Source of the DNA: Gloeocapsa sp. PCC 7428
GTDB lineage: Bacteria > Cyanobacteriota > Cyanobacteriia > Cyanobacteriales > Chroococcidiopsidaceae
DNA length: 64,000 nucleotides
Direction: 5' to 3'
Assembly: GCF_000317555.1 (NCBI RefSeq)
Contig: NC_019745.1
Coordinates: 4,278,001 to 4,342,000 of the forward strand
This document shows positions 1-59,431 of this stretch, piece by piece; position 1 is the first letter of the stretch; every line of letters starts with the position of its first letter. A program made the position numbers and the translations under genes. The notes under the pieces were generated by a model. That model saw only the letters and a program-made list of their open reading frames with translations, did not search any database and was not told the DNA's origin.

Positions 1-142
1 TCGTAGTTTCTAAGCAACGTTGCAGTTCATGTGAACTGTATCCAGGCATAGAAGCAATGATGGTTGAAGCAGTTTTGAAAGCAGTTTCAAATTCAGCAGC
101 TAAACCAGGCTTAATGTCGAGAATTGCAACTTCTAGAATCAC
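1..142 (-). CDS. Antibiotic biosynthesis monooxygenase (ABM) domain protein, 3' end cut by window
   Basis: Reading the minus strand from a GTG at 140-142 gives about 47 residues running off the window edge, beginning VILEVAILDIKPGLAAEFE and containing the pattern ASMPGYSSHELQRC. This matches the N-terminal half of small ABM-fold (dimeric alpha/beta barrel) proteins, where the first strand, the helix and the S-H-E-L strand form the core. Such proteins act as heme-degrading or quinol monooxygenases, or have unknown roles; the substrate cannot be inferred here. No ATG is available in frame, so GTG is the likely start. The C-terminal half lies outside the window. Confidence 0.72.
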   Translation of the reverse strand, partial: MILEVAILDIKPGLAAEFETAFKTASTIIASMPGYSSHELQRCLETT

Positions 143-235
143 AGATTTAAAGTTATAACTCAGTATTGACTACGACTGCTCTTAAAGTACTACCATTACT
201 AATAAACTTCAGCTGTTTGCTACAACCAAGTAATG

Positions 236-421
236 TTAACCTGCTTCGTCACTGAGCTTCCTAATAATATGCCTAGCAAGCTGCTCTTTAATTTCTCGGT
301 GTCTAGGCACAGGTTGAGAAACCTTTGTTTTTGGGTTTTGATACCAATCATGTTTGCTACCGTGACGGATGAAAACACAACCCATTTCCTCAAGCTTCTT
401 AATTAAGTCTCTGCGCTTCAC
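236..421 (-). CDS. hicA: HicA-family mRNA interferase toxin
   Basis: A 61-residue protein of the HicA/YcfA family: a small dsRBD-like fold that cleaves mRNA when free of its antitoxin. The sequence shows the family pattern: basic N-terminus (MKRRDLIKKLEEMG), then RHGSKHDWY with the expected catalytic histidine at about residue 24, and a PRHREI segment near the C-terminus. Its ATG overlaps the stop of the upstream hicB by 4 nt (418-421, ATGA), so the two are translationally coupled in antitoxin-then-toxin order. The length is normal for HicA. Toxicity is a family inference. Confidence 0.85.
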   Translation of the reverse strand: MKRRDLIKKLEEMGCVFIRHGSKHDWYQNPKTKVSQPVPRHREIKEQLARHIIRKLSDEAG

Positions 422-606
422 AGCACCTCAAGTTCTGCAACCTTACGAACATTTGGAATAGTTCCACTTGTTAACTCATTGTAAATATCGAGCAGATTGT
501 CTCTTAATTCCTCTTCTGTCTCGCCTTGAGTCCAATAGTCAGGATATTCTTCGAGAAAGCCTAACCACATATCATCATCTTGCCAATAAATATACTTCTG
601 TTTCAT
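418..606 (-). CDS. hicB: HicB-family antitoxin, short form
   Basis: A 62-residue protein with the partial RNase-H-like HicB fold: an N-terminal strand pair (YIYWQDDDMWLGFLEEYPDY), the TQGETEEELRDNL helix that is the family hallmark, and a short tail. It should bind and neutralise HicA. The C-terminal ribbon-helix-helix or HTH DNA-binding domain of longer HicB proteins is absent, so autoregulation by this protein alone is doubtful. It is the first gene of the hicB-hicA pair and overlaps hicA by 4 nt. Confidence 0.82.
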   Translation of the reverse strand: MKQKYIYWQDDDMWLGFLEEYPDYWTQGETEEELRDNLLDIYNELTSGTIPNVRKVAELEVL

Positions 607-16015: not shown

Positions 16016-16048
16016 GATCTCTGACCCCTGACCTCTGACCTCTAACCC
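16014..16048. repeat. Heptad repeat array (CTGACCY)
   Basis: Five consecutive 7-mers in register: CTGATCT, CTGACCC, CTGACCT, CTGACCT and CTAACCC. They directly follow the GTTGACA repeat. The whole 15780-16194 gap otherwise holds no convincing gene. Confidence 0.75.
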
Positions 16049-16194
16049 CTGCTATGAGTGTCTTCTAGTGAATTTACTGATGACACGCCAGGCTTTTCTA
16101 AGCTTGTGTAAATTAACTATGTGCGTTACGTAAATGTACGGAACAAGACAAAGGAATATGAAATACTGAAATATATAGCGCTCCAGCAGCATCT

Positions 16195-18150: not shown

Positions 18151-18166
18151 GGCAATAACTGGTAGA

Positions 18167-18194
18167 GATCAGAGGTCAGAGGTCAGGGGTCAGA
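18167..18194. repeat. Heptad repeat array in the nadB leader
   Basis: Four consecutive 7-mers (GATCAGA, GGTCAGA, GGTCAGG, GGTCAGA on the plus strand) lie 17-44 bp upstream of the nadB TTG start, in its 5' leader. Confidence 0.75.
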
Positions 18195-18267
18195 GGACGT
18201 GCTTCGCGCAGACCTACGGTTCAGACAGAGTAAAGATACATTATGCCCGTTATTAGAGCCTCTATCA

Positions 18268-27861: not shown

Positions 27862-27936
27862 AAATATGCATCAAAAGTTCTTTTGATACAAATTAACAAA
27901 TTTATTTAAAATTAAGAATTGTACAACAGGTCGAGA

Positions 27937-30225
27937 ATGCGCACGAGCGAGCAAATTAAGGCAGAGATCGAGGATAAGTTTGGTTTTTTTCCACCATTCT
28001 TTAGTCCAGCACTGCATAACCCTCAGGTGTTGGAAAATTTATGGCAGCAAACCCTTATTGCTTATATCCATAATCCTTTATCTGCGGTCTTTAAGGAAAA
28101 GCTGAGTGCTTACCTGTCGCGCTTCTGTACTGTTCCTTACTGTATGGTGTGTCATAGCTGTACTTTACGCCCGTTGGGGATGAAAGCTGAGGAAGTCTTG
28201 CAGCTTTTGGATACGCCACCACCGAAGGTAGAAGAAATTGAATCGCACTTAAAGCGACTTGCCGCACATACGCAGTTAGATATTTTACCTGCGGCAAATT
28301 CAGAACTCGAAGAAAGTTTACTTGTTTGTGCCGTATTTATCTTTTTAGAAGGCGAAGCCGCAGAAAACTATCGCGCCCAGTTACGCCAAATTTTGGGAGC
28401 AAGTAATTATCAACACTTAGTTGCGTTTGTCGCCTATGTGAAAACTTGTCACGTGTGGATGGAAGCTAATCCTGAGGTTTCGTATGAAGCAGATAAACGC
28501 GTCTTGGATAACCTTGGTTATTTAATAGCCGATGAGCCAAGATTAAGCGAGTTTTTTCGGAATTATGCCACTAAAGTCAAACAAGAGCGGCAAACTCGTG
28601 CAGAACGTCAAGCAATTCTTGCCGAACGCCAACGTAATTTAGAAGTCTTACGAGAAAGTGAAGAGAAATATCGTAAGCTGGTGGAATTAATGCCGGATAC
28701 ACTGTTTGTCCAATGTGAAGGTAAGCTTGTCTTTGCTAACAGTGCAGCAGTAAAGCTACTTGGTGCTGAGAACGTAGAGCAATTAATTGGTCAACCAGTT
28801 TTAAATATTATTCACTCAGAAAGTCAACTCATTGCACAAGAACGAATGCAGGATCTTCAGGCGGGAAAATCTGCGCCGTTCATTGAGGAAAAGTTTGTGC
28901 GCTTAGATGGTAGTGTCGTCGATGTGGAAGTCGCGGCTTTTCCTTTTACTTACGGTGGGAAACCAGCAGCACAAGTCGTGGTGCGGGATATTAGTGTGCG
29001 CAAGCAAGCGGAACAAGAACGTGCAGAACTTCTTGCTAGCGAACAAGCCGCACGCGCTGAAGCTGAAAGTGCGAATCGCAGTAAGGATGAATTTTTAGCA
29101 ATCGTCTCGCACGAGTTGCGATCGCCACTGAATGCAATGCTTGGCTGGGCAAGATTACTGCGGACTCGTCAGTTTGATGCGACTACAATGGAGCGAGCCT
29201 TAGAAACGATTGAACGCAACGGTCAAGCACAATTACAATTACTCGAAGATTTACTTGATATGTCGCGGATTATTCGCGGCAAAATTCATCTTAATATTTG
29301 TACGGTTGATATTTTATCGGTGATTACGGCTGCCATCGAGACAGTACAACTTGCAGCCGATACAAAATCAATTGAATTAGTTTATGAGATCCCTTCCTCA
29401 TCTATTTTTGTCACCGGAGATTTTGCGCGGTTGCAACAGGTGATTTGGAATCTACTATCGAACGCGATTAAATTTACGCCGCATGGTGGGCGTATTACTG
29501 TGCGATCGCAACAAGTTGGTGCGGTTGTTCAAATCACAGTCAGCGACACAGGAAAAGGTATCAGTGCCGATTTCTTACCATTTGTGTTTGATCGGTTTCG
29601 CCAAGCTGATAACACAAGTAGCCGAGGTAATGGCGGCTTAGGTTTGGGACTTGCGATCGTTCGGCAATTAGTCGAACTGCATCACGGTCATGTTTACGCC
29701 GCTAGCCCTGGCGAAGGAAAAGGCGCTACGTTTATCGTTGAATTGCCACTGTGTATCCAGAATCAAGAATTAGTCAATGACAACAATGATAATAAATCAT
29801 CCTCGCTGATAGATACGGCAAACCCACTTACAGGATTGCACGTTCTTGTTGTTGATGATGAAGCGGATATTCGCGACTATGTGACAACTGTATTAGAAGA
29901 ATATGGCGCACGCGTGCAAGAAGTTGCTTCAGTAGATGCGGCACTCGATGCGATCAAACAATCACCGCCAGATATCCTTGTGAGCGATATTGGAATGCCG
30001 CAAGAAGACGGCTATAGTCTGATTCAAAAAGTTAGGGCATTAGCACCAGAGTGCGGGAAAAACATACCGGCGATCGCATTAACTGCCTACGCTAGAGACG
30101 AAGATCGTCAACGCGCTTTAGCCGCAGGGTTTCAACTTCATGCCACAAAACCGATTGAACCAGTACATCTCGTTGCTTCTGTTGCCAAATTAGTCAATCT
30201 CCTGCACGAAAAGAATTGCGAATAA
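27937..30225 (+). CDS. AhpD-like domain - PAS - histidine kinase - receiver hybrid
   Basis: 762 residues from the ATG at 27937. The first 180 residues are all-helical and carry the cysteine cluster RFCTVPYCMVCHSCTLRPLGM, like the CxxC active-site region of AhpD/carboxymuconolactone-decarboxylase proteins. A coiled coil, a PAS domain (about 235-350), HisKA (FLAIVSHELRSPLNAM), HATPase (VSDTGKGISADFLPFVFDRF and GLGLGLAIVRQL) and a C-terminal receiver (ILVSDIGMPQEDG) follow. No membrane helix is present, so sensing is cytosolic, perhaps of peroxide or redox state (inference). The final codons (LLHEKNCE and stop) fall inside repeat copy D. Confidence 0.88.
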   Translation: MRTSEQIKAEIEDKFGFFPPFFSPALHNPQVLENLWQQTLIAYIHNPLSAVFKEKLSAYLSRFCTVPYCMVCHSCTLRPLGMKAEEVLQLLDTPPPKVEEIESHLKRLAAHTQLDILPAANSELEESLLVCAVFIFLEGEAAENYRAQLRQILGASNYQHLVAFVAYVKTCHVWMEANPEVSYEADKRVLDNLGYLIADEPRLSEFFRNYATKVKQERQTRAERQAILAERQRNLEVLRESEEKYRKLVELMPDTLFVQCEGKLVFANSAAVKLLGAENVEQLIGQPVLNIIHSESQLIAQERMQDLQAGKSAPFIEEKFVRLDGSVVDVEVAAFPFTYGGKPAAQVVVRDISVRKQAEQERAELLASEQAARAEAESANRSKDEFLAIVSHELRSPLNAMLGWARLLRTRQFDATTMERALETIERNGQAQLQLLEDLLDMSRIIRGKIHLNICTVDILSVITAAIETVQLAADTKSIELVYEIPSSSIFVTGDFARLQQVIWNLLSNAIKFTPHGGRITVRSQQVGAVVQITVSDTGKGISADFLPFVFDRFRQADNTSSRGNGGLGLGLAIVRQLVELHHGHVYAASPGEGKGATFIVELPLCIQNQELVNDNNDNKSSSLIDTANPLTGLHVLVVDDEADIRDYVTTVLEEYGARVQEVASVDAALDAIKQSPPDILVSDIGMPQEDGYSLIQKVRALAPECGKNIPAIALTAYARDEDRQRALAAGFQLHATKPIEPVHLVASVAKLVNLLHEKNCE

Positions 30226-30375
30226 ATTCGCTACTCAATAAACCCTGTCCACCTCCGTGAACTACGGGTAAGACATACCTTACCTCCTCAAATCTATTAC
30301 TTTATAGTGTGCGCAGGCACACTTTGTTTGAGTAGCCCCGACTTCAGTCGAAGGGTATCTATGATTCATGCAGGA
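30199..30375 (-). repeat. Nested-hairpin element, copy D, overlapping kinase 3' end
   Basis: Copy of the family in minus orientation. Terminal repeats are CTCCTGCACGAAAAG at 30199 and TTCATGCAGGAA ending near 30375. Hairpin 2 is AGTGTGC (30306-30312) with GCACACT (30317-30323). Like copy C it carries the longer central module, including CCGT/ACGG and a TAAG..CTTA near-palindrome. The first 27 bp encode the last codons and stop of the hybrid kinase. Confidence 0.75.
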
Positions 30376-30379
30376 AGCC

Positions 30380-30407
30380 AGGGGTCAGAAGTCGGGGTTA
30401 GAGGTTG
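30380..30407. repeat. Degenerate heptad repeats next to copy D
   Basis: AGGGGTC, AGAAGTC, GGGGTTA and GAGGTTG follow in 7-bp register directly beside element D. Confidence 0.55.
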
Positions 30408-30430
30408 GTTGACGCAACAGTTTTGAGTTT

Positions 30431-32026
30431 CTATTGCTCTAATTTAGTTAAAGGATTCGGTTGTGTTTGCCCTGTTGCTTGCGGCACTACGGTTAAATAA
30501 GGGTTGAGTACGTCGCTTTCTACCCAACCAGAGTAATGCTTTAGTGTCGTAGCGTTTTCAGAAATTGCGAGTAGTTCTAGATCGCCGCGCATAGCGTTGA
30601 AATTGCTAGGGCGGTTTGGTTCTACATTCATACTAGATGCAATTCCGCGAGAACCACCGCCAAATTCATTTTGCGCCACTTCATCCCAGGCGCGGACAAA
30701 GCGATCGCCTTGCCAATGCCATTCAGATCCAACCCAATCAATCGCCGGTTTTCCTGGTCGAATCAACCTTGGAAATTGTGCAGGTCTTGCCCCTTCATTT
30801 AGCGTCACCGTAAAACCTGGCTGATAGCGAACTTCATAGCGACTTTGACGCGTTTGATAATCGAGGGGATGCGACCACAAAACTTCAACGTCTTCACCTT
30901 GAGTATTTGATAGCGTCGCCGCCGGAGTTTTTTCGAGCAATCCGCGATAAATTGGGACTTCTGAAGGAAGCTTCGCCATCAACGCAAATCGCCAACACGA
31001 CCAGCGATCGCGATTTTCAACAGCTTGCCATTGCACTTGACAAATGCCGTTTCCTGTGCCTACCCACAGCGTATCGCCTTCGACTTCAAGTTGCGTTGGA
31101 ATTGCTCCCACAAGCGGGCTATTGTGGACAGTGTAGGTGTTGAGATTCCTTGAACGAGGATTTGCTAAATTTGGGCGATAAGCAACTAGCCCATAGGCTG
31201 GAATATTCGGATTCCCTTCTCCACTGAGCTTGGTTCCTAACCATAATGTAGGCGCATTTTCATCGCCTGTCACGACGAGATCGGTAATTTGTTGTGAGGC
31301 AATTTCCTGGGGCTGAAATAACGTAAATTGATTAGTTTGCGGTTGGTAGCTGACAATTGTAGCGATACCGTTATTACCTTCGCCTTGCTCAAATGCGATC
31401 GCCCACCAAATACGTTGTCCATCAGTCACCGCAGCCGTTATTTGGGGAATACCCAGTTGTGTACCAATACTGGAAAATCCGTTTTGTACAGCAGATGCTT
31501 GTAAATCTTTGAGGGTATATAGGATTTTTTGCTGCGGTTGCTGACTGTCAGGAGTTATTAATTCAAATACAACTTTGTCGTTTTCTGGTGATACCTCTGG
31601 GCGCGATAAGCGATCGCCTTCACTCAAAGAGTAATTTGGTTCTAGTCGTACGCGATATTGATACATTCTGCCATCAACTGTAATAGATTTGAATGATGGA
31701 TTAATGATTTCTTTTACAGCTTCTGAGTAGTTTGATGGCGGTTGAAATTCATTCGGTAAAGTCCCTGCTTGTACAGTCCAACTGTTGTTGCTGCGACAAA
31801 ATACAAAATCATATTTTGTTGTTTGAAACTTTATTGTATTATTATCTTTAACAATGTTCCGAATCTGATAATTGGAAGATTCAAAGTAGCCTGTTTGTGG
31901 GTTTGGCTCTACTTGAACCGCTGCTGTAGATTGTGGACAGGAGTTAGTATTATTAGCTGATTGTGAGAGCGACGTACAAGCATTTAATAGCCAGACGACA
32001 CTTAATAATGTGATAAATTTCTTCAT
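30431..32026 (-). CDS. Lipoprotein with beta-propeller-like repeats, unknown function
   Basis: A 531-residue protein with a lipoprotein signal peptide: MKKFITLLSVVWLLNAC, with the lipobox cysteine at residue 17. The mature part contains repeats of the type TLWLGTKLSG and TLWVGTGNGICQVQW, similar to the periplasmic-propeller blades of two-component sensors (Reg_prop), suggesting a propeller. No enzyme motif was seen. It probably sits on the outer or plasma membrane facing the periplasm. It lies in the same direction as the 142-residue gene upstream, separated by a repeat-bearing gap. Confidence 0.65.
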   Translation of the reverse strand: MKKFITLLSVVWLLNACTSLSQSANNTNSCPQSTAAVQVEPNPQTGYFESSNYQIRNIVKDNNTIKFQTTKYDFVFCRSNNSWTVQAGTLPNEFQPPSNYSEAVKEIINPSFKSITVDGRMYQYRVRLEPNYSLSEGDRLSRPEVSPENDKVVFELITPDSQQPQQKILYTLKDLQASAVQNGFSSIGTQLGIPQITAAVTDGQRIWWAIAFEQGEGNNGIATIVSYQPQTNQFTLFQPQEIASQQITDLVVTGDENAPTLWLGTKLSGEGNPNIPAYGLVAYRPNLANPRSRNLNTYTVHNSPLVGAIPTQLEVEGDTLWVGTGNGICQVQWQAVENRDRWSCWRFALMAKLPSEVPIYRGLLEKTPAATLSNTQGEDVEVLWSHPLDYQTRQSRYEVRYQPGFTVTLNEGARPAQFPRLIRPGKPAIDWVGSEWHWQGDRFVRAWDEVAQNEFGGGSRGIASSMNVEPNRPSNFNAMRGDLELLAISENATTLKHYSGWVESDVLNPYLTVVPQATGQTQPNPLTKLEQ

Positions 32027-49135: not shown

Positions 49136-49301
49136 TAGACCTCCTGCATGAATCACAGATGCCCTTCGACTCCCTTCAGGGCGATCTAAGCAAAGTGTCC
49201 CTTCGGACACTAAAACAAGATTTTTATGGCTAATTCCACCTCAGTGGAATTTTTTTTATTCAGCTGGCGAATTTATTCGCGATTCTCTTCACGCAGGAGG
49301 T
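49136..49301 (+). repeat. Nested-hairpin element with terminal inverted repeats, copy B
   Basis: The best-preserved copy, about 166 bp. Ends are AATAGACCTCCTGCATGAA and the inverted TTCACGCAGGAGGTTTATT. Hairpin 1 is GCCCT...AGGGC (49171-49192 area). Hairpin 2 is AGTGTCC (49194-49200) with GGACACT (49205-49211) around CTTC. Hairpin 3 is ATTCCAC with GTGGAAT, followed by eight T. A GCGAATTTATTCGC palindrome precedes the right end. It ends 10 bp from the carotenoid oxygenase stop. Confidence 0.8.
49233..49260 (+). terminator. Intrinsic terminator within element B
   Basis: ATTCCAC (49233-49239) and GTGGAAT (49244-49250) form a 7-bp stem with a CTCA loop, followed directly by TTTTTTTT. On the plus strand it would stop transcription coming from the VOC-like gene. 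Confidence 0.65.
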
Positions 49302-49311
49302 TTATTCAATT

Positions 49312-59111: not shown

Positions 59112-59288
59112 TAGAATCACAGATGCCCTGCGACTAAAGTTGGGGGCTATCTAGGCAAAGTGTACCTTCCTACACTAAAACAAGATTTTTGAGAGGGTAA
59201 GACATGCCTTAGCCGTAGTACACGGAGGTGGATAGGGCTTATTTAGCTAACGAATTTATTCGCGATTCTCTTCATGCAGGAGGTCTAT
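59112..59288 (+). repeat. Nested-hairpin element, copy C, in a divergent promoter region
   Basis: Right end TTCATGCAGGAGGTCTATT is intact; the left inverted repeat is lost and the copy starts at GAATCACAGATGCCC. Hairpin 2 is AGTGTAC/CTACACT (59159-59176) with one C-C mismatch at the loop. The long central module carries TAAGACATGCCTTA and CCGT/ACGG, shared with copy D. It fills most of the gap (59089-59431) between the regulator and the membrane protein. Confidence 0.75.
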
Positions 59289-59431
59289 TGTGTATAGCTG
59301 CGATTTTTGAAGTCTATCACTTTTATTACCTATGAGGTAATTGATTCTATTCAATTTAGCTTCAATAATTCAGGGTAAGCGGTTCAAAAGCGTCATATCA
59401 GCCGCTGTGTAAACCTTCTATCTTCAAAATC

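Follow-up and report, generated by a model that had tools for sequence, protein, structure and literature searches.

A miniature inverted-repeat transposable element at the 3' end of a hybrid histidine kinase gene in Gloeocapsa sp. PCC 7428

The gene considered here encodes a hybrid histidine kinase and lies in a stretch of 64,000 nucleotides of the Gloeocapsa sp. PCC 7428 genome (NC_019745.1, positions 4,278,001 to 4,342,000; the whole stretch, numbered from its first base, is called the window). Its last codons and its stop are read from a copy, here copy D, of a repeated element with inverted ends. We consider it very probable that this element, a miniature inverted-repeat transposable element (MITE), inserted into the last codons of the kinase gene and now supplies both its tail and its stop.

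The kinase 3' end and its orthologues

The open reading frame (ORF) of the kinase comprises 768 residues, the last of which are KLVNLLHEKNCE before the stop, and Pfam assigns to it PAS, HisKA and HATPase_c domains and a receiver domain (residues 642-755), whose end at residue 755 is upstream of the element junction. The earlier note had also given its N-terminal part (27919-28600) an AhpD label, for which no Pfam match was obtained there at E 0.001. The junction, which is observed directly, reads TT-AGT/CAATCTCC, in which AGT fits an ANT target. Codon V759 has its third base at 30195, and the element therefore provides this base, residues N760-E768 (NLLHEKNCE) and the stop codon TAA.

The earlier note had derived the end LLHEKNCE from a repeat read in reverse complement, and this derivation is borne out: within the window, bases 30199-30233 form an inverted repeat with 59248-59282 (89% of 35 bases) and bases 30187-30231 with 49267-49311 (80% of 45 bases), and a genome search with the copy at 59113-59290 returned 41 matches, among them the kinase site (C1:4308199-4308367, 78% identity, E 1.9e-31). 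The limits given there need correction, in that the element begins at 30195 and not at 30199, contributes nine residues and the third base of V759 instead of eight residues, and runs to about 30379. The palindrome around the stop, GAATAAATTCGC, is present at five sites in the window when up to one mismatch is allowed (100 shuffles: mean 0.75, maximum 3).

Comparison with the C-termini of orthologues had been proposed as a check, and we made it in 60 genomes, namely the source genome (G000) and 59 relatives. The kinase was matched at E <= 1e-60 in 41 of these, most of the listed matches spanning only the kinase and receiver part, and the four closest full-length matches were taken as orthologues: G001 (96%) and G002 (91%), of the same genus, and G004 and G010 (84% each), of the same family. 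The DNA alignments of all four end at window base 30194 and then diverge, and their tails (KLV-GRSA, KLV-GRSASNRG, KLV-GRST and KLV-GRST, each followed by a stop) are all element-free and never end in LLHEKNCE; nor did a motif search of the gathered loci find an element-free orthologue with that end. Short ends of the GR(T/S/A/G) type are common among the 52 tails that could be extracted by motif from 110 kinase loci, and the more distant full-length relatives G012 (65%) and G007 (62%) have different, longer tails. Because the site is element-free in G001 and in the outgroups, the insertion is placed on the G000 branch.

Immediately behind copy D the window reads AGGGGTCAGAAGT, where the orthologues predict AGTTGGCAGAAGT, a match of 10 of 13 bases exactly where it is expected; on both strands of the window, 24 of 127974 positions score as well or better with AGTTGGCAGAAGT. 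Given this match right behind the element, the old gene end was most likely pushed downstream rather than removed.

Table 1. Positions in the window of the kinase gene, copy D and associated features
Feature	Position	Strand	Basis
Hybrid histidine kinase gene, host of the insertion	27919..30225	+	ORF and Pfam domains
AGT triplet at the target, presumably the left copy of its duplication	30192..30194	no strand	Last bases common to four orthologues; ANT rule
MITE copy D, 185 bp	30195..30379	-	Genome search and family alignment; right boundary less certain, end degenerate
Element-derived coding tail: V759 third base, NLLHEKNCE, TAA	30195..30225	+	ORF and orthologue alignments
Palindrome GCGAATAAATTCGC, contains the stop codon	30218..30231	no strand	Motif count and hairpin scan
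Hairpin, terminator-like	30247..30262	-	Hairpin scan; family hairpin covariation
Hairpin, terminator-like	30306..30323	+	Hairpin scan; family hairpin covariation
Likely remnant of the former gene end, displaced; AGGGGTCAGAAGT versus AGTTGGCAGAAGT	30380..30392	+	10/13 matches; confounded by heptamer-like repeat
Convergent ORF beyond the element	30431..32026	-	ORF list
Family copy L029	18268..18433	+	Inverted-repeat search and family set
Family copy L016	49136..49304	+	Inverted-repeat search and family set
Family copy L001, left end lost	59113..59290	+	Inverted-repeat and genome search

Two further observations concern kinase-like ends. The kinase end of G002 (L033) is itself altered, its GRSASNRG being read from another spacer sequence that is absent in G001, so the 3' end of this gene appears to have been remodelled more than once. 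Among all loci gathered, the motif of the kinase end (LLHEKNCE) closes just two frames of 100 codons or more, the kinase itself and a repetitive frame of 110 codons in G022 (L278, about 108-437, minus strand). The latter ends in DLLHES, an end that is likewise read from such a terminal repeat, and is probably not a gene. As regards the spacers of the window, heptamer-like GGTCAGA repeats are found in several of them (16019-16050, 18164-18195 and, directly behind copy D, 30380-30410).

The element family and its candidate transposase

We aligned and compared 29 full copies of 142-186 bp, the ends of which are AGACCTCCTGCATGAA and its reverse complement, that is, terminal inverted repeats. The target duplications of the family are observed directly: the outer 3-bp flanks are identical in 22 of the 29 copies, the triplet being ANT in 19 of them, compared with 0-1 identical flanks of 29 at 13 shifted control positions. 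A duplication of TA, suggested by the TAGACC...GGTCTA ends, was considered and set aside, the triplet ANT fitting better. The 18-base end pattern (up to three mismatches) has 52 forward and 54 reverse sites, and a reversed control pattern 0 and 2. The elements are thus short and multicopy, have terminal inverted repeats and a fixed 3-bp duplication (not identical in copy D itself) and contain no transposase gene, as is characteristic of MITEs. A catalogue collected around BLAST and terminal-repeat matches comprises 74 distinct element stretches; it is incomplete, since further pieces occur in 400 kb sampled at regular intervals. In columns 101-120 of the alignment (A1), some copies have a palindromic module of the GGGTAAGGCATGCCTTACCC type and others lack it, as if such modules were gained or lost as units.

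A match to a full copy was found in 11 of the 60 genomes, the source and 10 relatives; long matches are present in G001, G004, G010 and G014, shorter ones in G002, and matches of only 22-48 bases in G003, G006, G022, G049 and G056. G003, which belongs to another genus of the same family, carries three elements (L273-L275; 267, 146 and 146 bp) with the same ends and another interior, and all three are flanked by exact duplications (AGT, ACT and AGT) that conform to ANT. Rfam gave no match in the window at gathering score. The repeat family was not found in a literature search, in which the text matches listed for pieces of the repeat were to a 9-base term only and included no cyanobacterial repeat by title.

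A candidate for the source of mobility is a 960-bp element on contig C2 (L171:616-1575), which has the family ends (1 and 0 mismatches), is flanked by differing triplets (AAT and ACT) and encloses two transposase pieces, one matching PF13359 DDE_Tnp_4 (E 1.2e-12) and the other HTH_Tnp_4 (E 3.8e-5, below its cut-off). A search with the second piece found no other locus in the genome. Within the IS5 family, 3-bp duplications with the sequence ANT are a mark of the ISL2 group. Based on this rule and the domain match, the source transposase probably belongs to the ISL2 group; the family would accordingly consist of MITEs whose movement depends on an IS5-type (DDE_Tnp_4) transposase acting in trans. 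It resembles IS5/ISL2-type MITEs in being short and non-coding, with inverted ends, a 3-bp ANT duplication and ends that match those of a DDE_Tnp_4 insertion sequence.

Very probably, then, the MITE, presumably mobilized by such a transposase, entered the AGT target in the last kinase codons, shortly after the end of the receiver domain. The reading frame now continues into the element in the only phase that meets no stop in the terminal repeat, yields NLLHEKNCE and ends at TAA in the inner palindrome, while the codons of the old GRSA-type tail were most likely shifted downstream, where they may be decaying. As the kinase domains are untouched, the change was tolerated, and its effect on the kinase may be near-neutral.

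Insertion and its alternatives

The earlier note had left two routes side by side, insertion into the 3' end of the gene and a new stop provided after removal of the old C-terminus. Insertion is favoured, because AGT at the junction conforms to an ANT target and 10 of the 13 bases of the old end are matched behind the element. Several findings nevertheless weigh against it. Copy D is degenerate at both ends and flanked by unequal triplets (CCC and ACT as set by script; AGT and AGG if one base was lost in the end), its identity to the nearest full-length copy is only 84%, and the 10/13 stretch resembles heptamer repeats elsewhere in the window. The C2 transposase is the only such locus found in the genome, and its reading frame is broken. 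In addition, G001 is without the spacer sequence common to G000 and G002, which indicates a more complex history of the site.

Degenerate ends and unequal triplets, together with a downstream spacer that differs among G000, G001 and G002 and so suggests a region prone to rearrangement, would also fit deletion of the old C-terminus and its replacement by recombination with another repeat copy, with no transposition involved. We regard such a replacement as improbable, given that the left junction is canonical ANT, that the 10 matching bases of the old end stand exactly after the element and that other copies show clean empty sites. An ancestral element, precisely lost in the orthologues, would accord with the age of copy D, which is 16% off the nearest full copy; the kinases of G000 and G001 show 37 differences among 331 four-fold sites, so that the date of the insertion may come close to that of the split between the two genomes. 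However, the four orthologues represent two genera and are all element-free with a GR-type end, so that at least two precise losses would be required, and this history is hardly credible. Insertion of the MITE into the last codons of the gene therefore remains by far the most probable account.

Gene ends, terminators and known systems

How a gene may tolerate such an insertion can be seen in the element ends. At the junction, ANT/AG creates TAG in one frame and CATGA stops a second frame within 4 codons, so that only the third continues; this third frame stops within 12 codons of the left end in 20 of the 29 copies and within 14 codons of the right end in 23 of them. In 13 of the 29 copies, every one of the six entries meets a stop within 15 codons (Markov controls: mean 1.4, maximum 6 of 29), a result that rests mostly on the terminal repeat, and since this repeat is shared, ends and copies are not independent. 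The kinase entered the running frame at the element's right end. This shows that built-in stops are a simple reason for the tolerance of such insertions at gene ends.

The kinase is one of nine cases among the 74 element stretches in which an open frame that has 80 or more codons outside the element takes its stop from within it. Several of the nine are partial copies, and L027, L230 and L237 were left out of the orthologue comparison; the five remaining cases were compared with G001, G002, G004 and G010, the tails being read by eye from the bases. In L005 the stop is now a TAG from the element and the protein end is the same, the site being filled in G001 and empty in G002, G004 and G010. In L024 the element changes TGA to TAA, again with the same protein end, and the site is empty in all four (in G002 the alignment has a gap further upstream in the gene). 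The tail of L026 is IKPPA, the site being filled in G001 and empty in the other three. A truncated copy in L015 yields KMPSD; G002 is without a copy there, G004 and G010 diverge directly behind the gene, and the G001 counterpart (L193) has a differently remodelled copy at the same gene end, with the tail KPITN. Finally, in L217 the end EMEQQL of G001 and G004 has become EMEQQ, G010 diverging four bases earlier and G002 giving fragments only. Targeting of insertion to stop codons was rejected: the two clean cases, L005 and L024, are no excess, since about two would be expected by chance (a rough hand estimate).

Copies at gene ends could in addition be kept as transcription terminators, a role that would add to the insertion rather than compete with it. 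Of 70 placed copies (the 74 stretches minus two inside ORFs and two without a gene on one side), 30 are flanked by convergent genes, 33 by tandem genes and 7 by divergent ones, as judged from crude ORF calls of at least 90 codons. Background intergenic bases are 10.7% convergent, 58.9% tandem and 30.4% divergent in a sample made up of the window and 20 stretches of 20 kb each, which itself contains element copies (binomial p of 5e-12 for the convergent excess and 7e-5 for the divergent deficit); counted by number of gaps, the convergent share of the background is 15.4%. Around copy D, 601 bases contain three terminator-like hairpins on the two strands (shuffled mean 0.5), and the RNA of the copy folds at -54.1 kcal/mol (z -4.5). 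Changes on both sides occur in 16 of 42 named pairs from the terminal repeats and five hairpins (shuffled mean 7.4), and 89.9% of pairing cells pair (87.4% when shuffled, 32-41% with the partner slid), in a test biased in favour of the structure because the latter was picked from the same sequences. The hairpins may, however, serve transposition, and selection against insertion in promoters and genes would produce the same bias; purifying selection alone can account for the excess between convergent genes. In view of this, and of the crude ORF calls, we hold a terminator role to be possible, though doubtful. A broader proposal, which we rate somewhat lower still, is that the family acts as a portable gene end. 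Insertion at a gene 3' end would then rebuild a complete end, with TAG from ANT/AG, CATGA and then the inner palindromes usually stopping the three frames and covarying hairpins capable of bidirectional termination following, and copies between convergent genes would be kept as helpful.

MITE-supplied gene ends have precedents. RU-1 is a different family, not known to be related in sequence to this MITE. As described for the amidase gene ECA3499 of Erwinia carotovora, an RU-1 (ERIC/IRU) copy at the 3' end, where the stop was apparently eliminated, similarly encodes C-terminal residues beyond the conserved domain (Delihas, 2007; PMC2759123); it differs in adding about 34 residues, and the account of that case gives no base-level element-free junction. 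In Coxiella burnetii, according to the account of QMITE1 and QMITE2 (PMC5896051), copies likewise overlap gene 3' ends, by 1-50 bp, and one lengthens the C-terminus of EnhC; family and host are different and the EnhC tail, at 33 residues, is longer. Rickettsia palindromic elements also place repeat-derived residues in conserved proteins, as the relevant account states, but are in-frame inserts inside genes (PMC2229807), whereas the present element terminates the frame, which stops 31 nt into it. In-frame fusions of small mobile repeats are among the subjects reviewed in PMC2229807 and PMC10969869. Since the RU-1 and QMITE precedents, as far as these accounts go, are published, the phenomenon is known rather than new, and the kinase is a further example.

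What the kinase adds is a base-exact case of a MITE rewriting a protein C-terminus, polarized by outgroup genomes. Moreover, six genes of one genome, the kinase and five others, can be compared with their orthologues within one MITE family, and this family offers a ready test set for the question of whether MITEs become terminators in cyanobacteria.
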